From Prunella strophiata (Eukaryota; Chordata; Aves; Passeriformes; Prunellidae): DNA of 64,000 nt. Below, in pieces: positions 13,020 to 59,046 of this stretch. The notes beneath the pieces were generated by a model. That model was not told the origin of the DNA and made no database searches. It saw only the letters and a list, made by a program, of their open reading frames with translations. Position numbers and translations under genes: made by a program. Every line of letters begins with the position of its first letter. The first letter of the stretch is position 1. Location of the stretch: positions 13,785,145 to 13,849,144 of the forward strand of contig JAZBQD010000025.1 of the NCBI GenBank assembly GCA_036583965.1, given 5' to 3'.

Positions 13020-13700
13020 GTTCTGCGCGGCCTCCGCCTCTTCCTTCCGCCGTGGGGCGGGGGGCATGGGGGACAGACAGGCCCGCGGCCGCTGGCCCGG
13101 CGGCAGCCCTGTTGCAGACGTGAGCGCTGCTCCCGGGGCCCGAAGCCGGAGCCGCTCGGGCGGCGGGCGAGAAGGGGCAGGGCGCTGTTCCAGCCGACGC
13201 TTCCGGTGGGCGGTGCGCCTGGGGCCCGGCAGCCGGGGCGGCCCCTTCCGGCGGTGGCGAGGATGGCGGCGGAGAACCACTGTGAGTTCCCGGTGCCCCC
13301 GGCTGGCGGCCTCGGCGCGGGTGGGCCCTGCCGTCGGTGTAGCTCGGCGCCGCTGCCCGGCGCGGGGCCCGGCAAGTGGGTCAGGCTGAACGTGGGGGGC
13401 ACCTGCTTCCTGACCACTCGACAGACGCTCTGCAGGGACCCTAAGTCCTTCCTCTTCCGCCTCTGCCAGGCCGACCCCGACCTGGACTCGGACAAGGTGA
13501 GCGCGGGCCCCGCCGCGCCCGTTCCCCGCTTCGGGCCCGTTCCCCCCGCCGCCGCGGCCGCTCCCCGCTCCGGGCCCGCTCCCCGCCTGCCGCGCTGAGG
13601 GTGCGCTGCGGCTGGTGCCCGGTCCCGCTGTGACGCCTGCCTAGGCGGCCGCCGGCGTGAAGGGAACACGGGGCCCGGCGCCGCGGTGAGGGGCGGCAGG
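13020..13700. promoter_or_regulatory. KCTD5: CpG island promoter of KCTD5
   Basis: The composition switches from AT-rich to strongly GC/CpG-rich at about 13022 and back near 13700. A GC box (GGGGCGGGG type) sits at 13054-13064. The transcription start should lie between there and the start codon at 13263. No TATA box is seen, as is usual for housekeeping CpG promoters. Long minus-strand frames here reflect GC content. Confidence 0.85.
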
Positions 13701-19700: not shown

Positions 19701-22700
19701 TTTTTTTAGTATCTCTGGTAAACTACTAGAATATTAAAAATAAGTAAAAAACTATTTGAGGTACTGCCACATCTGTCTAGTATATATTTGTAGATATCCA
19801 TTGCACCAAAACCTTATGTACTAATGGATTAATACAGTCAGTAATCCACTTGATAGTAGAAAGGAGCAACGGATCAGTTAGAAATCTTTCTACGAATCTT
19901 CCTTAGATCTCCAGCCAGCACAAAGTATGTCAGTACTGTCTTGTTTGCAGGGGTTCACACATAGATTCTAAATAACATAGGAATTACCAATTTTGCTTCT
20001 TTATCTCTTTGTCAAGAATATCAGCTCTGCAGGTGAATTTCTTGAACTGCTTCGCAATTCACAAAACGCTGTAGTCTGTTTGGTAAATTGAGCATTAGTT
20101 TTCATCCTTCATTACTTCACTTGTCTGCATGAGCTAGGTAGGAATTGCATCTTCAGTGTACTTTTTTTTTTTTTAGAAGATGCATGTACAACCCTTGCTT
20201 GGTACACAGCAGTTCTCAGTACCCTGTGAGTATTTGTACATCTGAGCAAAGACAAAAGCAAATGTTTTTAGAGCAAAGTGTTGAGGTTAAAAAAATATAG
20301 GTTCGTTTTCCTTTAATTAAAAAAAGAAAAAAAAAAGAAAAAAAAAAAAAGGAAGAAGAAAAAAGAAAAACTGGTATTTGAAGCTCGCAAGAGTGTAGCC
20401 ATTGTTCTGACTCTTCAGGCTCCCAAACAAGATTTCCTGGGTTTAAGTGCTATTTTTAACCTTAACTTTTGGTGTTCTCACTTACCACTTAGATCTTTCA
20501 TGCTAGCGATGTTGTTAATCATTGATAAGGGGTTAGGGGGATTGATCAGATAAGAGAAGTTGTGTATTGGATGATTTGATTGATCATTCTGATACCATAA
20601 CAGTTACATTGTTTAATTCCTTTTATTGTCTTTAATAAATCCAGCTTTCAGGGATGTGGCTATATCCGAATACCTGCTCACTGCAAGATGAATATTAGTT
20701 TGCAGTTCCCACTTGGATGTTCAAATCATTGTGAGGTTTTTGGTTTGTTTGGTTTGGGCTTTGGTGTTCTCTTGCTTTGTTTTGGGTGGTTTGTTTGGTT
20801 TGTGTTTGTTTGTTTTTCTAATCTAGGATGAAACAGGTGCCTATTTAATAGACAGAGACCCAACCTACTTTGGGCCAGTGCTGAACTATCTCAGACATGG
20901 AAAACTGGTTATTAACAAGGACCTAGCTGAGGAAGGTAAGACATCTCTAAATATCTCGTTTGCTTGCCACTTGCTTATTATTTTAACTTCTTTTGAATCA
21001 TCAGAATTAACTTAGAACGAGATGGCGGACCTTAACCAGTGTAGCATTTCTATCTGTTTCAAGCAAAACTGATAGGTATCATGCAGTTGTAGTATATAGG
21101 GTTATTTGAGCATTTTGAGTACAATTCCTGATTTCACAACTCCCATTCTCAGTTGGAACATAAGTATTCAAATGAGAGGGGAGATGCCTTTTATTGTGTA
21201 ATCTTGTATCTTTCCTGTGTAACTGAAATATTTAGGTTTAGTTCTCTTTAAGCAAAAGAATGCTGCCTAGGAAGCAAGCTTTAGAAGATGTAAAGCAGAC
21301 TAAAAGTGAAGTTCTGGCATGGTCAGATGTGTGGAATATGCTTTTAAAGACTGAATTCTGCCCTCAGCTTCTCCCTCCTTGTTCCCAGTTTGTATCAATT
21401 TTACCCTAATGGAGGATGACTGTTTTAAAACATATAGTAATAAAACTGTATTGATAGCATATTGAAGAAATTTATCAAAGAGTAATACAATTTAACAATA
21501 CTAGGGGGAAATAGTATGAAATATAATTTCTGTGTGCATTGTGTGTGGAGAACAGGCAGGCCTTGAGCATGTGTGTAGAAGCAGTATATATCTTTAAGCT
21601 TTTGTTTCAGACTCTAAGATCTCGAATGACAGGAAGAAAAATTTTATGCTTGCTAGCAGCTGCAGAGATTTTTTCAGTAGGGTTATTTAAATTTCTCTTT
21701 TGCATTCCAGCCTGAGGCAGGGCCTGAGGTATGGTAGTCTTATCAGTCTGCTATGGAACGGTATCTGTGCGCATTTTTTTGTTTCTTGTCTTGTTTTGTA
21801 TGTGAAATGGCATCAGTTTTCTTTGGGATATTTTTAGGACAATTTTTTTAGAACGAGCCAGACATTGACTTACATGTACCTGAAAGAAGCCAGAATTGTT
21901 AGGTTGGTGAACTGCCTTATCATAGCAAAAAATTAATAATTTTCTGTAGCTGTTGAGAAGATAATTTTATGAACTGGTTGGTGATTTTGGCCTGGAGTCT
22001 TTAGTTACACTGTCTTCCCAAAAAATGTTTTCATACTAGGTGTACTGGAAGAGGCTGAATTCTACAATATCACATCTCTAATAAAACTGGTAAAGGACAA
22101 AATAAGAGAAAGAGACAGCAGAATCTCTCAGGTGAGGCTGTTTTCTTGTGTGCTTTTGATTATTTGTTTTATGACAAGTAGTTCCATTTGTTTTTTTGTG
22201 TAACTCCTGATTTCCCCAGTAAGATATGGAATAGCTGCCTCCATCCCTGGCTGATCTGGAACCACTAGTATATAAAGATTAATATTCTTAATTGCTGGCT
22301 CCTGCCAGTCTGCTTACAAAGCTCACAGATCTCTTTCAAAAAATGAAAACATTCTAAGTAATTGTTCCAAAATGTTTGGTAATAGTAGAATTTGTCATAA
22401 TATAATTTCTGGAAATAGTTATGTTAGAGAACAGCTTTTGTAGAACATAGCTTTCTCATTGACTTTTAAATGCTCTGAATATGATGAGGTTGCCTAACTA
22501 TGGTATAACTGCTGTTTATACAGTATGTTTATGCAGCATACGTGCAGATGCTATTTAGCTCCTGTCATATGTTTTTGTAGCAAAGTTGCTTTCGTTATTT
22601 GTAATGCTCTGTGACTGAGAAGGTTGCCTCTTCTCATAGCAGCTCATATTCTCCATGAAAGTGAATATGAAAATGTTTGTTCATTAACTCTGCTTCTCAG

Positions 22701-25700
22701 GTAACTGGTAACTTCCCTGGTAACTGAGTCTTCATGGAGATATTACAAACATATTGTTATTGACAAATTTCTCTTGAAGCTAGGTTGTTGGGTCACAGGG
22801 TTGCTCTGATAGCATTTACTATAGGTCTCAGCTAAAATGGTCCTAGTTACTCGTTGTTCTGGATGGGTTCAAAGTGGTGTTGCTTACCATTTCTAGAGAG
22901 TAAGGGCAACTTCAGACAAGTCACAAATATAGCAAATTCCATACCGTATTGAGCATCTTATATTTCTTATTGAAGGTGCCAGTCAAACATGTATACAGAG
23001 TGCTGCAGTGTCAGGAAGAGGAACTCACTCAAATGGTTTCCACAATGTCCGATGGCTGGAAATTTGAACAGGTAACAAATATGTATGGGATATAGTTAAC
23101 ACAATCTTCTAAGAAATGAGTATGAAGTACCTTCTGTGAAAGAGGAATATAAATTAAATTCCATGCATCTTTTTTTATTCAGTCGTTTTCAGAATTTGGA
23201 TAAACATACACAGCAAAGTTAAAATGTGATACTTGTGTTTGCATTTATCATAAAACAAAACAAAAAAAAAAAAAAATCAGCTTTCCAGGAGGTAAATGTT
23301 GCTGACTTTCTATAAAAACATCTGCAGCGTCTGAAATGTAATTCTTTAGTGTCTTCACATGAGCAATTGAAAGGTGAATCAACCAGAATTAACTAATACA
23401 AGTTTATGTGAATGATAGGTTAGGTATGAAGAGCTCTGCGTAAAAGAGATGAGCTTGGGAGATAAATGTTTGCCCCCAAAGAGTGGTTCTTCAGATAAAA
23501 TACACTGATACACAAAGGAGGGTGGACTTTACCTGTGTAGATGTGAAGGTTGATAGCTGTGAGCTATGTGAATGTTCTTGTTCTTTGCAGTGCATAAAAA
23601 TAACTTTGTGTGTACATTCAAGAACACACTGTAAAATCACAAGATCTATCTTTTATCTTTGATAATTTCTGTAAGTAAGAAATGAACTGTACAGCTGCTT
23701 TATTCTTCACATTTCTAATCCAGCAGAGTACTTGAACTGCATTGGAGCAATGAATCTGTTAACTCTGAAACACAAGTGTTCATCTGCTAGCACCCTTTTC
23801 AGCGTCTGATGCTTACCATAGGAGAAATTGAAATAAGCACAAGCCCATTATCCTGTGTAGTCTCACTCTAATAACACAACAAAGCAACATTTAAAAAATG
23901 TTTATGACACAAAGGTGAAAGAGAACATTTTGTTTATATTTGACAAAATACGTAAGGTGCTAATAACGTGGAGACAGTCATGAGCAAATAGACTAAACAG
24001 GCACAGAGCAAGCTTTTTATGCTTCAGTACTCTGCTTCAGGTATTACCAGGTCTGTTTGCTATGCCACAAGCTAAATGTTGTTTAAGTCCCTGAAAAAAA
24101 CTCTCACTTAATACATGACTGTTTTTTGGCTAGTGCATGGAAAAAGGTTTTTCAACATTCTTCTTTGTCAGGAGAAACTACCTGTCATTACAAACAGAGC
24201 TCCTTTACTTCTTAGCAGATTAAATGACACCATATATTTTATCTATCCTAAACCCTTCGGGGATATTGTATTTGGGAGTAATACTGCTTTGACAGTGCAA
24301 CTGATGAAAGACCTATTATAATCTCTTTTAGAACTGGAAGAATCCAGTGATTCTCTTGGACATTGCATCCTTGTTTCATCCAGCTGTCTCCCTACTTCCT
24401 CCCTCTCCCATGTTGAATATTTTTAGACACATAGTTTGAAGTAGATAAACACAACAGCTGTATGATCTCATAATACTTAGCATCTCATTACCTCATACTA
24501 GCCCATATCTTCCTTTGTACTCACTTGAAGTAGGATTAGAATATTGTGCATAAACAGTTTTATTGTTAATACCTTCAAACACTGTAGCAGTTCTGTAATT
24601 TTTTCTAAGCCCATGCTGCTCAGCAGCATGCTTTCTTTCAGAAGCAGTCTTTGGGGTGGTACCCACCATGCTCTATATGTGAAAAAAGATGGACTCATCA
24701 GCTTTTTCAGAGGAGTGATATTTTTACAGATTAAGAGTCCTTGTGCTCTGAGCCACATATAACATGCTCAAGTGGTTAGTTTTGAAAAAAAATGGGTTTT
24801 TACGCTTAGCATTTCAAAATTTTATCATTAAATATGATTGTATATGGTTATTGAATAGGAGTGGAAGGTGCTGAGCTGTTGGTGCACTAATGCAGATGTA
24901 TTGATGCCCTTTTCCAAAGAGCACATTCGAAAGCTCTGCTAGATCAGTGCAATTATGTATTTATTAGTCCCAGTCCAAAATTGATTACCAAAAATTATGC
25001 TGCCCCACTTCAGTGAGTTATTTTGTAGAGGATTTTTAGCTTCAATTGTTGCCTCTTCAGGCAATCAGAAAAAAACCAGTATTTTGGCAATACAACAGAA
25101 TAAAAAAACGTGGGCTATACAAACGCTTTAGACAGCAGCAGCGGTGTTGATCGTATAAATTTTAATGATTAATGTAACCTGAGTATGGCTGCATAATGCA
25201 GTCGTATGTTCATTGTATGAGGAGGATGGTGTTTAACTGCTGTCTTCAAAATTATTCACACACAATAGCAGGATATAGATAAAGTTACTATTCACGGGCC
25301 TTCTCATCTGTCGTAAACTCCAGTTTATTCAGAATAAGCAATTGTTGTCTGACTTTACATAAACTAAAGTAAAGTTCTAATCTCTCTGAAGTGCACTGAC
25401 AAGCTCTGTTTTAATTTAAATGGGCTGGGAATTGTCATGTGTTATTAAGGTAAAATATGTTTTGTAATAAGAGGTTGAGAAATTTAGCTGAGGTTGAACT
25501 TTAAATTATTAGATGTTTGGCCAGTGTTCTTGGTAGTGATTTTTGTGGGAACAAGACAATGTTTTAAATTCCAGTTATTTTCTTGGATCTTCCGTAAATT
25601 ACTTCTTCTAAAACTAATCTAGACCACTCAGCGTTTTTTCCTCTTGTTGACTTCTTATGTTTCCTTAGCTGTATTTTATCAGTAGTTGGAACAAGATGAA

Positions 25701-28700
25701 GCTCTTTAATACCCAGGCTTTATATATTGCTTTACATAGCATCTTCCAGTCTTATATCCATGCTGCCTTTTCCACTTGTCAATGTATGACAGGAAAATAA
25801 TGGTTACTTTTATAATGCACCAAACTTTGTTTGTTTTTCAGAGTAGCTGGCTACAACACAGTTATATGGGGAGTTTTCTGTCTTCTTATCAGTAATTCTT
25901 AACTTCCATTTAAATTAAAAAGGGCTTTGCAACTGCCTCAGTAAATTTTATGTTGAAATGAAAGCTGTAGCTTGATAGCAACCTGTTCTAGTGGCGAGTA
26001 AGTGTTACCTGAACGTTTAAGCTCATCTTTTGATTACTTGTACAATATGGATAACGGTATGTACTTCAGCTTTACAAAGGTTTCTTTTTGTGTTTTGCTT
26101 TGATTGGTTATTTCAGCTTGTCAGTATAGGTTCCCAGTACAGCTGTGGCCGGGCTCAGCAGTCAGAGTTTCTGCTGATAGTGTCACGGGAAGTGAAAGGG
26201 GAAGAGAGATGCTTCCAGAAATGCTGCAGTGAGGTGTGTCACACCATTCTTTTTGCCCTCACAGTGATATGCTTGGCCTCCTTGCATTTCTGCTGCTTTC
26301 AGATCATTCCACTTTTTTTCTGGATGTACTGCACATAGTAGTTTGTGTGTATTTGTGACTGGCTTTTATTTATATTCACGATATTTCATTACATATTATG
26401 AATGTCCACATTGTAAAAATAATAGAAAAACAACGAAACAAAAATCCCTTGATTATTTAGTTCAAGGTTTTTCTTAGAGAGTTCTTACCTCTGCAATAAC
26501 TTCTTTTCCTTAAATTTTCCTCCAAAATTAGCAGCCTTTGATCCACACTTGTTAACTAAGAGGTACAATTCAAATATAAGGAGCCCTAAAAATACACCTT
26601 TGAGTTCAATGGGTCCAGAAAGGGGACATTTCTGGTAGACTAGGAAAGTGGTTATTTCATCCACCAATGTTAAGTTCTGCGTTTGAGCCCTTTATTTCTG
26701 GTAACTCAGAACTTACCTCTTTTTTAGGTGGATGAGATATGTTCAAATTTGAATAACAAGTAACAGGAGTTTTTTATAAGTAAAATATGGAGTAAAATAG
26801 ACAGTTTTAAATCTTGTGTCAAGTTGAAAAAACATGTTGGGTGTTTCCTTGGCTTTATTGTTTTGTTGTTTTGGGGTTTTTTTCCATCTCGGGAAATTTC
26901 CTTGAAATCCAAATGGAGAATCCTGGCTTCATTCATTCTCTGTTTTTTCATGCTTCCTTTTCCCTTTGTTCTGCTTTTTTGATTGCTGTGTTACTTCCAA
27001 ATATTTGTGAGTTTGGGAAGGATTTTTTTGCTCTCAGTAACATTGGAGGCAGTTTCTATTTCTTTAAATATCTGTGCTACATTTCAAAGTGTTGTATGTG
27101 AATTGATTTGGGAACCTGGTGCTCTGTAATTTTTTTCATCAACAAAATGCCTGGAGTACTTGTTCTTTTTCTTGCAACATATATGGTTATTTAGTCTGAA
27201 AGATGAGTATAACATTATGAAGATAACATGATAGTGAAATGCCTTAATAAAAACAATCCTTTGCTTGTGACTTTATATGGACACATAATCATGCAGTTCT
27301 AGATTTGAAACCTGGACTGTTACCCAGCCTTATAGCAGAATCTGCTTTCAATGTACCAAGCACTGCCTGTTTCTTGCAGTAGTATAGGTAACATTTGGAA
27401 TGTGAAATGTAGGGGTTTCATACTTTCAGCAACAGAGGAAGAATTGTGGCTTGTTAGTGATGTGTAGGGTACAGGCAGAATGATGTTACTCATGCATTCA
27501 TGTCCTGGATAGCTCAAAGTGAAAGACAGCATTGTAAAATGGAAGGTGGGGAGGGCAGTGAAGAAATTAATGCAGGTATAAAATAATACAACAATTATAA
27601 TAAAAAAATTAAGCTTTGAAGCCTGATTATTGCATTAAGAGACCTAAAATAAATATTCTTTCAGGTCTGGTGTCAATCATCAGTTCTGAGTTTTAAGAGC
27701 CGATATGTATGTATCTTCATAACCTTTTGCAAATCCTTTGGGAAGGCAGAACAAATGTATTATGTGTTTAAAAGGCATAGAGTCCATTCTTAGATTCATA
27801 CAACTTGATTCTGTAAAAAAAATTGAGTGGAGGATTTTCTTTGATTCTATTAGCTGATGGTATAATTAAAAAAAATTAAAGGACCATTTTTCAAGATTTC
27901 TAGTGTACAAGGAGTTCACCACATCTGAAATAGAAACAGTAATAGTCAAAGTACAAGAATATTTAAAATAGAATTTGAGAATAATTATTACAGAATTTAC
28001 TTGGTTTTGAGAATCAGACCATCACAAAATAGAGAAGGAAATTACTAGTGGTGAAGTAGGAAAGTTAGTTAATATGAGTAACTCCAGTGGTAAGCAGAAG
28101 AAGAAGAAGAAGACTGGGCTGCTGTTTGTGCAAGCTGGAGTGGTTATCTGAGATAGCAATACTATTGCTGATTTGTCTAGTAAATATACTGTATAGATTT
28201 TGAATCAATATTATTAAACCAATGCAGCAAATCTGTATAGGCATGTTACTGAAATGTGTCTGGTTTAGAGATCTGTCCCAGTTCAGTTAGGCATGAGATT
28301 AGCTCACTTCAAAAATAAGGTTCCGTATTATGAGACAAAAAGTTCCTTCTTGTGATTTCTTTTTAGGAAAAATCATGATCTCTATTGACACATCAAGCAA
28401 TAACTGTATTTCTTTTGGTTTAATAAAAGTAATGCTGCTTACCATTCCTGCCTTTTTTTAGTTGTAGCTGACAGCCTATCAGCTGACAGTACTATCAACC
28501 CTTATTCCATGCAAGCAGTAATGGATCCTTATCTAATGAATTTTCTCTGAAAAGTAGCATTGGCATTTTCCTGTGCTCAGTTCTGACACTGTTGGGGCTC
28601 ACAGGGATGCTTAAATAGGATCACACTGCTTTAGTAAGGAGTTAAATCAAACAAGCCATGGAAGGAATAAACCAATGCAGAAAAATAGATATATGCGTGT

Positions 28701-31700: not shown

Positions 31701-34700
31701 AATCATTAATTCTGTAACTGTTTAAAAAAAAACCTGTGTGTATCTTATCATCAGAGTGTGTATTGTCAATGTATTTGTCAGCATCAAAACGTATTTGCAT
31801 TGAAGTGGAGAATCATGCTTCAGGCAGAGCCCACAGTCTGAAGAGTGAGGAATGTTTGTACTAATCATGAGACTTTATGGAATTTGTTTTATGTGGAGAT
31901 ACAATTGACTTTTTTTTTTTCATTTCATCTTTCAGCTGGTCAGTATTGGTTCTTCCTATAACTATGGCAATGAAGATCAGGCTGAATTTCTGTGTGTTGT
32001 TTCAAAGGAATTGCATAACACTCCTTACGGCACAACCAGTGAACCCAGTGAAAAAGCAAAGGTGAGTTACTAGACATTGGACTAAAGAAATGGTGTTGAA
32101 TTGAGTGGGCTACAAAAGTCATGATAGATCTACCTCTGTTCTAGACTATTATTTCATTGTCCTTTTTTACCGCTTTTTCAGGACTAATAATGATTCCCCG
32201 TCCATTGTATGAGGGACTGTAAATGCTACAGTCAGCATGCATTTGTTATGCATGCCTGAATTATTTAAATACAATACTCTGGGCTTTTTCAGTACCTGTT
32301 TTCTTTCAGGTACTGGCAAATATTTGCTCTTTACAGCTGATAAACTAGGTGTTTGAATGACACTGGTTCAGTTAAAAACTTTTTTTTCTTGCTTGACTTC
32401 TGCTGAAGAAATCTTACTGTCGAGATTGGAACTTGAAAGATGCTATCTCTGTAAAACAGTCATGTGCAATATGTTAGAAAATATGGGTACTTGTTAATGT
32501 CTTTAGGGTTCTACCAAGTTTACTTTCTGTAGCCAACTATACAAAAAGATTGTAATGGGCACAGTATCTTAGCATTTTACTCAGTTGTATTTCAGAATTT
32601 GTACAAAGAAAAATGTAAAACCATAGCTGACTAACTGTAAGGCAGAACAGTTCTGTAATGTAAGTGTATTCAGTGTCATGAATAGTGAACAGCTTCTGTC
32701 ATTGTATTGCTGCAAACTGGATACACCTGTAGTTGTCTTAAAAGCTTTTGATTTCCCTTATGTAGATGGAAAACAATTGGTAAATCATCAAAGCTTGCTT
32801 TTTAAAAAATCACCTTCAAAGAAATTAATTTTGAAATAATGCTAAGAATGGGTCTGAGTCTTGGTACTGAGGCCTCAAATAGATAAAACTTCATTACTTT
32901 CTATGCTTTGTAGCATGCTTATGCAGCTACACATATGGAATAATTTTTATAATTTGAACTATAGAAATACTCTAAGCTGTATGTTGGATTCCTAGTGAAA
33001 TGAGTAATTTATATTCATGCCCATTGAGATAAAACTTCCAAAGAGCTGTAAAGGAATAATGTAGCTAGGGGTAAACAGTGAAACTGGGTAAGCCATGTCT
33101 TACTCTTTCAAAACCCTAGTTAAGGTCTGCTTTTGCCAGAATGCTTGAGGAAGACTGAAAGTTGACATGTTAGAGGTGTGTGGTAATAATTTAGGGCTGA
33201 GATATCTACCTGAAGTAAAATGTGGAATTCTAGAGCCTAATAAAGATCTTCATAAGGAATGGTAGTGCATCTTCAAGTAATTTTAGAAGTTGTCAGAGTT
33301 ACGTTGCATCCTTAATGTAATAGAAAATATGGGTCAAAAATAAGTGTTAAAGACAAAAACCAAAAGCCAGTTGAGACTGCATTACGACTGTGTAAATGGA
33401 GTAGTGCTAAGAGAGGCTGTCTTAGATGTCATCATTAGTGTGCTGCTTGGTCATTGTTTCAGAGAAGAGAGCAGAGCATCATTTGACCACTGCGATGAAT
33501 AGGAATTACTGTTAATTTTGGTTGGAGGTTCCCTCCTTTTGTCCTGGAAGAGTTAAGCTGTTCCTAGCAATTAATGGGCAATACTTGAAGAATAATTCTA
33601 TTATAGATTAAGTTTCTAAAAGATCATATTTTTGTATATACGTGTATGTTGTGACTGGGAAAAAAAGGAAAAATAATTTATTTTTTTCATGAGAGGTTTC
33701 TGACAGCTGTGTTCAGGAGTCTTGACTTTGGGAGATGTTGTCTCCATAGTTCCCTCTTAGCAAGCATTATCCTCTAGCCTCGGTAGTGTCTGAGTTGGTC
33801 TTCATGAAGTTCATATGATTGAAATTCTGGTATGCACTTTTATATGCAGAATAATATGTTCATGTACTGGGACTGACTTACAAGAAACTCCTCCTATTAC
33901 TTTTACAGCAGATTGAGTTAGAGGAAAAAAAAAAAAACAACCTGCCAGTATGTATTTTTTATTGACAAGCGCTTCAGTTTTAGTTAATAGTCCTGGATTT
34001 TCAGAATGGGAGAAAGTATCTTCTGATAGCCATCTAATCATGCTTCACCTTCATTCCTTCTTAGGGACTTTTTTCTTGTGTTTTCTTTTTTTAGTTAACA
34101 GCATAATAAGTTAGTGGACAACCTCTGTGTAACCTTCTAATACACCTAAATAAAGGAAATTCATCTTAAATGGTTCCACTGGCTTTTACTGGTAGCCATG
34201 GCACAACCAAAAGATAACCTATATTCCCACAAGCAGTATTCTCTTTCATACCACTTTATGGACCTGACTGTTGGCTTCTATCTGCTGACTTCAGGATATT
34301 TGGAAGAGGAAATTGTCATGAAATCTGTTACATTCCTTCTTGAAATGGTCAGCTGTCATACTTTTTTATACAAAAAGTGGAGGTCCCAGGTAAAAGTAAA
34401 TAAATGTCATTGCCACAGGCTTCAGGTGTAAGTGGAATGTACTTTGTTGCAGCTCTGACTCACTTGCAATCTCTTCTTTTCCCTTCCTTCTTCTATACGT
34501 GCTGCATGCTGCATGACACTCAGAGTGAGGATGAAGAAACGGATTACGATATGAATGACTCAGATTAAGTGTAAATGTCATGGTGAGCACTAGCTGCCCT
34601 AGGATTTTAACCAGATTCTTTTTTTCCCATCCAATTCCCACCCTCACTAGTGCTATCCTTCAGCTAGTCCTGGTGGTGTGTGTGTGTTTGTGATTATAGT

Positions 34701-37700: not shown

Positions 37701-39113
37701 GTGGATTTTTAATTTTTTGTGCTAACACCACACTGCCTCTGAAGTGTCTCTGAGCTACACAAATGGTAATGGGTGTTTCATGAACTCCAGCCCTTAAAAA
37801 ATCCCATGAAGTTGGGCAAAGCAGGTGAGACCTTGCTTGACTTCAGTCACTATGAAAGACATAGTATCCATTTTAACAATATTAAAAGGAAACCAAATAT
37901 CTCAGCTTTTAAAATTTAAAACCATACTTGAAACTGTTGTGTGAATCAACTGCCAGTCTTTACCCTACAAGCACAGAGATTGAAGTGTTCGTGTGTGCTG
38001 GCAGATTTTGTGGGCTACAATGTGCTACTGAGTGTTTGCTGTAACATCAGGCTACACAAAGATCACAATAGAAGGAAAACCCATCTTGAGGGCAGCTCTG
38101 TCACTGTCCATGGATTGTGCCTTTGCTTTCTTTCAGCTTTTGAAATAAAGAGCCCTTTCCAATACTAAAAAAATTATCAAGAAGCAAAAGAGAACTAAGT
38201 CTCGTAAGACTTTTACTTACAGATTAACATTCTTACGTACTTATGCTCAGTGCATTTGAAGCTTTGCTTAATGCTTTGTTTGCTTTTTGTCATGATTGGT
38301 TCTACAGCCTGCTGATACAGTTCTTCTAGAGTACTATGCATCCCAACAGTTTACTTCATTATTGCTGATTGTGATTCAGTTTAGAGCAGCAACATTAAAA
38401 TATAGTTGCTTGAACAGTCAGTCCTAAGACTTGGATCCTTTCCTCTCTGGAGAAGGCAAAATAAACTGAAACAGAAAAGGACAAAAACCAGTAAAACTGA
38501 AGTAAAATGGATGTTGTTGATTTCAATCTTGCCAGGCTGTACTTGGCCTTTGAAAACTTCTTGCATCAATGCACCCAGTGTGACATTTTCGCACATTTTG
38601 ATTTGCTAGGTCATGTTTTCAGTACTAATTTATGGAACGCAGTTTGCATCTGAAACTTCAGAAAGTTAAGGACATTTTTCTGGAACAGGAAAAATTAAGA
38701 TTAAATTCAGTTCCTAGTAAAATACTCAGGTTAATTTACCGCATAGGACCTCAGGATCTTCTGAACTAGGCTGAGGTGCAATGGCTTACTTTTTACAATT
38801 GCCAACTCTTAAGTCTTCTTAATGTATTAATGATTTATATTAATAATACTCAATTCCTAGCAGTGTTTTACGCCTGTTTTAATGGTATTTGATAGCAGAT
38901 ATTGTACATATCAATCTGTCTTTTTTCAGCTTTAAAGCACAGATCCCAGGAATTTCCTCGAACCAGGTCCTTGACACATTACCAGTTATTTAAAGTAGTC
39001 ATTATGTTGTTCTTTGATCTCCATGCTTTAGGAATGACATTGAGCTAATTTTCATTTATAGAATTTTTATTGGTCTATTTCAGATTTTGCAAGAACGAGG
39101 TTCCAGGATGTGA
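13263..39113 (+). CDS. KCTD5: BTB/POZ domain protein KCTD5, CUL3 ubiquitin-ligase adaptor
   Basis: KCTD5 is a pentameric BTB protein that binds CUL3 through its BTB domain and presents substrates, including G-beta/gamma subunits, through its C-terminal domain. Canonical coding exons, all with GT/AG borders, are 13263-13496, 20827-20935, 22040-22131, 22976-23071, 31936-32061 and 39084-39113. They total 687 nt, or 228 residues plus stop (human about 234). The start at 13263 gives MAAENHCEF, matching the human MAENHCE start, with A at -3 and G at +4. The BTB domain starts at [10 protein letters not shown] (about residue 38) and runs through [14 protein letters not shown]. The C-terminal domain includes [12 protein letters not shown] and [18 protein letters not shown], and the chain ends [13 protein letters not shown]2 and KCTD17 are close paralogues, but the N-terminus and the PDPK1 neighbour favour KCTD5. 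Two extra in-phase exons within the gene (26117-26233 and 34524-34582) are listed separately. Confidence 0.97.
14625..15200 (+). mobile_element. CR1 LINE 3' fragment, sense, in KCTD5 intron 1
   Basis: It carries the typical CR1 tail segments: ggttctttccaaagaggttg, 'gggcttcccaggaaatgg', gatccttgtgggtcccttcc and the terminal attctgtgattctat. It is 5' truncated and contains no intact reverse transcriptase frame. The left edge is approximate. Confidence 0.92.
20319..20370. repeat. Polypurine (A/G) tract in KCTD5 intron 1
   Basis: Fifty-two consecutive purines, mostly A with scattered G. It could come from an old poly(A) or simple-repeat expansion. No retrotransposed sequence was recognised directly upstream. 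Confidence 0.85.
20738..20818. repeat. G/T-rich tract adjoining the acceptor of KCTD5 exon 2
   Basis: Units of ggtttgtttggttt run to within about 10 bp of the exon 2 acceptor at 20825-20826, so the usual C/T polypyrimidine tract is replaced by a G/T-rich one. Confidence 0.85.
20936..26116 (+). other. KCTD5: KCTD5 introns 2 to 4 region
   Basis: Between the short exons at 22040-22131 and 22976-23071 and up to exon 5a the sequence is ordinary AT-rich intron. I found no transposon fragment that I can name and no other exon with supporting splice sites. Confidence 0.7.
26117..26233 (+). CDS. KCTD5: Extra KCTD5 exon 5a: diverged duplicate of exon 5
   Basis: A 117-bp exon-like segment (39 codons, phase 0 at both ends) with a pyrimidine-rich acceptor (tttcag at 26111-26116) and a GTGTGT donor at 26234. 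It begins [18 protein letters not shown], against [18 protein letters not shown] in canonical exon 5 (31936-32061). In the first 25 codons 15 residues are identical, and six of those use different codons. Changes such as I/V, R/K and V/L are conservative. After that the two diverge: [14 protein letters not shown] here against [17 protein letters not shown]. The open frame, intact splice sites, matching phase and synonymous-type drift argue for a functional alternative exon rather than a decayed copy. It would swap the acidic NEDQ patch of the C-terminal domain for RAQQ. Transcript support was not available. Confidence 0.8.
26234..31935 (+). other. KCTD5: KCTD5 intron between exons 5a and 5b
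   Basis: 5.7 kb of AT-rich sequence. It includes a short AGA repeat (28097-28114), an alternating TA/GT-rich stretch (28690-28725) and a poly(A) run (30847-30867) with no retrocopy that I recognise beside it. Because it separates two duplicated exons it is a place to look for splicing control elements, but I see no clear pairing sequences by eye. Confidence 0.7.
31936..32061 (+). CDS. KCTD5: KCTD5 canonical exon 5 (5b)
   Basis: A 126-bp, 42-codon, phase 0/0 exon with a tctttcag acceptor and a GTGAGT donor. It encodes [18 protein letters not shown] onward to SEPSEKAK, matching known vertebrate KCTD5. It is listed separately because it is the partner of the upstream duplicate at 26117-26233, 5.7 kb away. 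Either exon can join exon 4 and the following exon without a frame change. Including both would also keep the frame. Confidence 0.97.
34524..34582 (+). CDS. KCTD5: Putative KCTD5 cassette exon with alternative acidic C-terminus
   Basis: A 59-bp segment with an acceptor CAG at 34521-34523 and a good donor (ATG then GTGAGC) at 34583. Joined in phase 0 to exon 5a or 5b, it encodes [14 protein letters not shown] and a TAA at 34566-34568. The region ahead of it has no AG dinucleotide from a candidate branch site (ctgac, 34455-34459) to the acceptor and carries a long pyrimidine tract, a layout typical of regulated exons. The stop lies 14 nt before the exon end, so if spliced to the last exon it should escape nonsense-mediated decay. 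The product would replace ILQERGSRM with a casein-kinase-2-like acidic tail. I do not recognise this tail from known KCTD proteins. It is inference from splice geometry and composition. Confidence 0.6.
35477..35590 (+). mobile_element. CR1 LINE 3' end, sense, in KCTD5
   Basis: The last roughly 110 bp of a CR1: gattcttgtgggtcccttcc, then agctcaggatatgctgtgat and tctatga. It is strongly 5' truncated. Confidence 0.85.
36010..36727 (+). mobile_element. CR1 LINE 3' fragment, sense, in KCTD5
   Basis: The longest CR1 copy here (about 700 bp). It has the segments ggctgagacagttgggattg, 'cctggagaagaaagcccc', aggttgtccagagaagctgt and cattggatgatctttaggat-like text, ending in gtgattctatgattt. Short frames inside it are relics of the CR1 3' region, not host genes. 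Confidence 0.93.

Positions 39114-47541: not shown

Positions 47542-59046
<11,505 letters not shown>

Follow-up and report, generated by a model that had tools for sequence, protein, structure and literature searches.

The KCTD5 gene of the bird Prunella strophiata, located within a 64,000-nucleotide stretch of contig JAZBQD010000025.1 (hereafter the window, whose numbering is used throughout), carries a second copy of its exon 5 in the intron between exons 4 and 5. KCTD5 is a pentameric CUL3 adaptor of the KCTD2/5/17 group, and its counterpart in flies is Insomniac. Judging from sequence comparisons, this additional copy (exon 5a, 26117..26233, + strand) is an old, constrained coding exon. 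The reading we favour, to which we assign a probability of roughly 0.6, is that 5a is a frame-keeping duplicate of exon 5, present from shark to bird and mostly joined to exon 5, and that it would form the two terminal strands of the C-terminal domain, with exon 5 becoming a loose tail.

Sequence, occurrence and constraint of exon 5a

Exon 5a comprises 117 stop-free bases that translate to LVSIGSQYSCGRAQQSEFLLIVSREVKGEERCFQKCCSE, is preceded by an acceptor (...TTATTTCAG) and followed by a GTGTGT donor, and has phase 0 at both ends. With a length divisible by three, no stop and both splice sites, it has the properties of a frame-preserving cassette exon. The original prediction, made from the sequence letters of the window, had described a 39-codon open segment with intact acceptor and donor and phase 0/0 between exons 4 and 5, and each of these features was confirmed at 26117-26233. 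Its figures for the likeness to canonical exon 5 (31936..32061, + strand, 126 bases, 42 codons, phase 0/0, located by tblastn) were also reproduced: an ungapped comparison yields 15 identities in the first 25 residues, and six of these 15 are encoded by different codons.

The open frame alone is weak evidence, given that 4 of the 36 AG-117-GT intervals in the exon 4-5 intron are open. What places 5a above chance is its homology to exon 5 together with the same exon in other vertebrates, and these observations also uphold the proposal that a duplicated exon 5 was kept as coding sequence. In a tblastn search of the whole window with human KCTD5, the location of 5a was the sixth-best match (37 bits, E 1.8e-5). 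Within the 1.05-Gb genome, the 39-residue peptide has a single match at E <= 0.001 (four candidates scored), and we therefore rejected a retroposed or multi-copy origin. When 5a and exon 5 are compared with 1 kb on each side, they share just one significant stretch, which lies where the acceptors meet the exons (41 bases, 78%, E 3e-4); thus a recent duplication was likewise rejected and the copy is considered to be old.

The acceptor region of 5a (26087..26116, + strand, ..TTTTGCTTTGATTGGTTATTTCAG) ends in seven intron codons that read CFDWLFQ in frame in the window, compared with CSDW[LS]LQ at the same intron end in fish. The pattern [CG][SF][DH]W[LS][LF]Q fits 22 of 24 read-through sequences, the two exceptions being swan goose models, which suggests that the acceptor is conserved between birds and fish. 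A TTGAT within this region could be a branch point, unusually near the acceptor. Two swan goose gene models (P0005 and P0008 among the database proteins collected) contain 32 extra residues between exon 4 and 5a that are dissimilar to 5a. No GCATG splice-regulator motif occurs within 300 bases on either side of 5a, and other short motifs are too common to carry meaning.

A protein search with the 5a peptide returned 72 proteins, whose named sources include birds, a turtle, a newt, frogs, a possum, the shark Heterodontus, the ray Narcine, reedfish, gar, sturgeon and many teleosts. A second search, starting from the possum 5a, returned 46 proteins, 45 of them common with the first, and a third, with the whole protein as query and the best 120 of 1,886 matches considered, added five carriers (echidna and four fishes). 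The 5a core is present in 78 of the 150 proteins collected, and the 5a of the window is letter for letter that of P0011. Given the presence of 5a in shark, ray, ray-finned fish, amphibians, turtle, birds, echidna and possum, the duplication would predate the split of cartilaginous and bony vertebrates, ~450 million years ago.

Among the best 120 of 1,886 matches, 5a is carried by none of 14 placental and none of six squamate representatives, counted as cluster representatives bearing such names. Two placental proteins (P0082 and P0084) were considered as carriers and rejected, as the residues they have between exons 4 and 5 are unlike 5a and appear to stem from intron read-through. The echidna 5a was not recovered in the region searches, which indicates that diverged copies can escape such searches. 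Later loss or strong divergence of 5a in placental mammals and squamates is therefore likely but not proved, because its basis is the best 120 of 1,886 proteins. The matches listed include no named lamprey, hagfish or invertebrate, and no search was aimed at these groups.

We also compared 44 5a peptides with two 9.9-kb loci, L009 and L010, that hold whole exon 4-5 introns and that we take to be KCTD2 and KCTD17 of the same species. Exon 5 was recovered at these loci, and otherwise there were weak matches only, the best in the introns having E values of 0.033 (L009, 4498-4590) and 0.23 (L010). The former was rejected as a 5a because its score was reached in 13 of 60 shuffles of that intron, and thus the search of the paralogs proposed with the original prediction yielded no 5a in either exon 4-5 intron.

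Constraint was assessed in an alignment of 31 proteins with 5a, chosen from 73 by length and spread. The mean pairwise identity is 0.858 for residues 1-29 of 5a, compared with 0.970 for exon 4, 0.975 for residues 1-26 of exon 5 and 0.504 for the exon-1 leader, and the first 29 residues of 5a are identical between newt and shark (29/29). The length of 5a varies by whole codons (34, 35, 36, 37, 39 or 44 residues among the 48 proteins whose junctions are clean), and teleost copies lack four loop residues that the mormyrid proteins P0083 and P0093 retain. The newt-shark identity and the mean of 0.858 run against the stops, frameshifts or neutral rate expected of a decaying duplicate, as judged from protein databases, which admit intact frames only. 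The last ten residues are the least conserved part of the exon (0.444, or 44% against 86% for residues 1-29). The cysteine-rich end that the original prediction had named as part of the changed surface lies outside the conserved part: it is mainly a bird feature, with no cysteine after the 5a core in 36 of the 53 proteins that carry 5a and exon 5 in tandem, and three cysteines in nine of them.

Splicing pattern and predicted fold

Exon 5a is joined directly to exon 5 in 53 of the 78 5a-bearing proteins, and in 48 of these it is also closely joined to exon 4, whereas in none of the 78 does it run to a last exon without exon 5. Of the remaining 25, 19 are open frames (source 'lgn') in which exon 4 is missing or the frame enters introns, and six have other ends (P0013, P0014, P0052, P0065, P0066 and P0072). 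These junctions are mostly those of database gene models, to which the cDNA-like P0037 can be added. This protein is encoded by a continuous 240-residue frame, running from exon 4 through 5a and 5 to the last exon, on a contig of 1,093 bases, and because the frame is unbroken on so short a contig we judge P0037 to be a cDNA or processed copy, not a gene model.

Forms with and without 5a coexist. In Genypterus blacodes, isoform X1 contains 5a and exon 5 (P0046) and isoform X2 contains exon 5 alone (P0104), the longest contig being 1,127,600 bases for each, so that inclusion and skipping are found among the annotated products of one gene, and isoforms X1 and X4 of Oncorhynchus nerka provide another such pair. 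The cluster of the canonical guineafowl protein has 450 members, and the largest bird-named tandem clusters have 51, 51 and 44. Given the 53 tandem proteins, the lack of any that passes from 5a to a last exon without exon 5, and the coexistence of both forms, we classify 5a as a cassette that puts two copies of exon 5 in tandem. In the mormyrid proteins P0083 and P0093, a 5a without the teleost loss leads straight into a shortened exon 5. Since the names of these proteins bear no isoform label, 5a may be constitutive in them, and because Brienomyrus also has P0044, they look like products of a second KCTD5 gene.

The C-terminal domain of KCTD5 is described as binding G-beta-gamma, and its BTB domain as binding CUL3, in a review (PMC13361646). 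The protein brings free G-beta-gamma to CUL3 and influences cAMP signalling, and the fly ortholog controls sleep, according to three reports (PMC13361646, PMC11790235, PMC9976452). A hot spot formed by charged and polar residues in the C terminus of KCTD2/5/17 contributes to G-beta-gamma binding (PMC9976452). For Insomniac, the text of PMC11790235 states that the C-terminal tail and a surface arginine are important for activity, and that changing the loop residues N-Y-G to alanine leaves activity unimpaired.

Two AlphaFold2 models, of low overall confidence and of local confidence that is at best moderate, assign the last two strands of the C-terminal domain to 5a, with the original exon 5 left unstructured. 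In the same assignment, exon 4 (22976..23071, + strand, with a phase 0 end at ...WKFEQ, from tblastn and the joined translation) is predicted to supply the first strand, the helix and the start of the second strand of this domain. Because the strand that starts in the WKFEQ of exon 4 continues straight into 5a, the predicted folding copy is 5a. Its inclusion upstream of exon 5, in a form of 267 residues, would provide the last two strands of the substrate-binding domain, and the original exon-5 segment would be left as a loose tail.

Between exon 5 and the shark and newt 5a, the loop changes from NED to RDH, and the strands carry the changes C to L, V to I, K to R and L to V. Inclusion of 5a would be expected to leave the BTB domain and CUL3 binding unchanged, and to change residues of the strands and of the loop (NED to RDH or RAQ), as well as how far the tail lies from the domain. 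Given that KCTD5 is a pentamer, regulated inclusion could therefore lead to pentamers of one form or of both, in which affinity (for G-beta-gamma, for example) or substrate choice is altered; such an effect of 5a on affinity or choice is plausible. The original prediction had proposed a changed C-terminal substrate face with CUL3 binding untouched. This proposal stands with regard to location, since 5a lies in the domain assigned to G-beta-gamma and the BTB domain is the one assigned to CUL3, but not with regard to the exclusive exon use by which the change was to come about. We hold more tentatively, at somewhat less than even odds, the stronger view that an exon swap takes place at the protein level, in which the upstream copy of the domain-closing hairpin takes over the fold and the old hairpin, still included, persists as a tethered tail that could pair with a neighbouring subunit or with another KCTD. 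A single splice choice would then produce an additional CUL3 adaptor whose substrate face is new, and the copy would have been lost in placental mammals, in which KCTD5 is mainly investigated.

Alternative readings

The most serious competitor to the reading that we favour also accepts that both copies are included, but keeps exon 5 in the domain, with 5a bulging out as an insert or with both copies packed as two hairpins. Of the two copies, exon 5 is more strongly conserved (0.975 versus 0.858) and is the one present in the KCTD5 chains of the PDB, and the limited confidence of the AlphaFold2 models leaves room for this arrangement. However, both models seat 5a and not 5 at the exon-5 position, the second of them even with canonical rows that align to exon 5, and the strand from exon 4 crosses the junction, such that the use of exon 5 would break it. 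We consider this alternative unlikely, although it is the one we would take most seriously.

The original prediction favoured a mutually exclusive pair, in which a transcript uses either 5a or 5 to yield two proteins of similar length with their C-terminal segments swapped. The two exons are indeed homologous, adjacent, equal in phase (0/0) and similar in length (117 versus 126 bases), a 5a-only product would stay in frame at 225 residues, and cluster members behind the representatives might conceal such a form. However, exons of such a pair are never co-included, whereas 5a and 5 stand together in 53 of the 78 proteins, including Genypterus X1, and a 225-residue product fell inside the length range searched without a single join of 5a to a last exon that bypasses exon 5 being found. 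For the same reason, the proposed replacement of SEPSEKAK by CFQKCCSE, which needs exon 5 to be skipped, is not borne out. We judge mutually exclusive use to be improbable.

Marginally less probable still is that 5a mainly serves to make a short form, ending in or just after 5a by donor read-through or through another end exon. Six proteins depart after exon 4-5a, among them those of tilapia (P0066) and opah (P0065), which continue into VCPT..CP.A.HCM, a downstream frame that is similar in many fish sequences. Yet these are six of 78 proteins against the 53 that continue to exon 5, and the ends of P0013, P0014, P0052 and P0072 are unrelated to one another, P0072 being a fusion to UBC9. A decaying duplicate or conserved non-coding element mistaken for an exon by gene predictors is very improbable, for even though the junctions depend on gene models and open AG-117-GT intervals arise by chance in this intron (4/36), the newt-shark identity, the whole-codon length changes and the cDNA-like frame of P0037 speak against it.

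Gene context, known systems and significance

The canonical coding exons of the window, when joined, encode 228 residues without a stop and exhibit KCTD5 splice phases throughout, and their order and strand (+) are consistent in the tblastn search of the whole window. In addition to exons 4 and 5, they comprise the coding part of exon 1 (13263..13496, + strand), which runs from the start codon to GACAAG before the donor gtgagc and was located by tblastn and a stop-free joined translation. Exon 2 (20827..20935, + strand, BTB domain), exon 3 (22040..22131, + strand) and the usual last coding exon (39084..39113, + strand, ILQERGSRM*) were located by tblastn and the joined translation. The exon 4-5 peptide matches KCTD5 chains in the PDB with E values of 1e-46 to 3e-46. 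Exon 1 is identical to its Oenanthe counterpart (P0010) except at one residue, and the gene overall is songbird-like. Exons of UBE2I (UBC9) lie downstream on the same strand (51435-59043), and KCTD5 and UBE2I are fused into single protein models in several bird and fish annotations (P0072, P0073, P0087, P0090 and P0094).

A second choice of C terminus is offered by an alternative exon at 34524..34582 (+ strand), which has its own stop (SEDEETDYDMNDSD*, stop at 34566-34568) and probably a donor after 34582. The SEDEETDYDMNDSD tail occurs in seven of the tandem proteins and also in proteins without 5a, and it closes the protein in representatives from bird, reedfish, salmon and cichlid. Diverged tails (SDDEETGHDENDSD and alike) are found in squamates, zebra, orca and sheep. 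The text of the ASCOT study reports a new exon of mouse Kctd5 with RT-PCR novel-exon validation (PMC6952364). The forward primer matches exon 5, with one mismatch to window positions 32021-32040, which places the mouse exon downstream of exon 5. As described there, it resembles 5a in being an alternative exon of the same gene and differs in that 5a lies upstream of exon 5; its equivalent in the window may be 34524-34582 and not 5a.

With its canonical coding exons complete and ordered, the window gene is KCTD5 as it is known, whereas 5a is missing from the PDB chains of KCTD5, to which the exon 4-5 peptide aligns uninterrupted. A survey of human tandem duplicated exons counts 236 mutually exclusive events, according to its text (PMC9741552). 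Like the exons it describes, 5a is ancient and coding, reaches into fish, has the same phase as its partner and exhibits conservative changes in its core. KCTD5 differs from those described in that both copies are spliced together in annotated forms, and the replacement, if any, would occur in the folded protein and not by exon choice. KCTD is unmentioned in the main text of this survey. Publications on KCTD5 splicing, isoforms, exons and structure contain no description of 5a among the matches listed, supplements and subscription papers being outside this scope. The earlier statement that no such KCTD5 exon pair has been described therefore agrees with the papers among these matches, but public KCTD5 gene models already contain 5a, many of them named isoform X1.

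On the strength of these comparisons, we regard 5a as an ancient tandem-duplicated alternative exon, unusual in that the message retains both copies. If our reading is correct, work in mouse and human covers only part of the ancestral KCTD5 gene, because 5a was kept from sharks to birds, echidna and possum, whereas none of the placental representatives carries it. The exon would also illustrate clearly how the co-inclusion of duplicate exons, and not their exclusion, can cause a replacement in the fold. Exons 5a and 5 would then represent two natural, selection-tuned versions of one hairpin on a constant CUL3-binding part, and thus a test of substrate selection.
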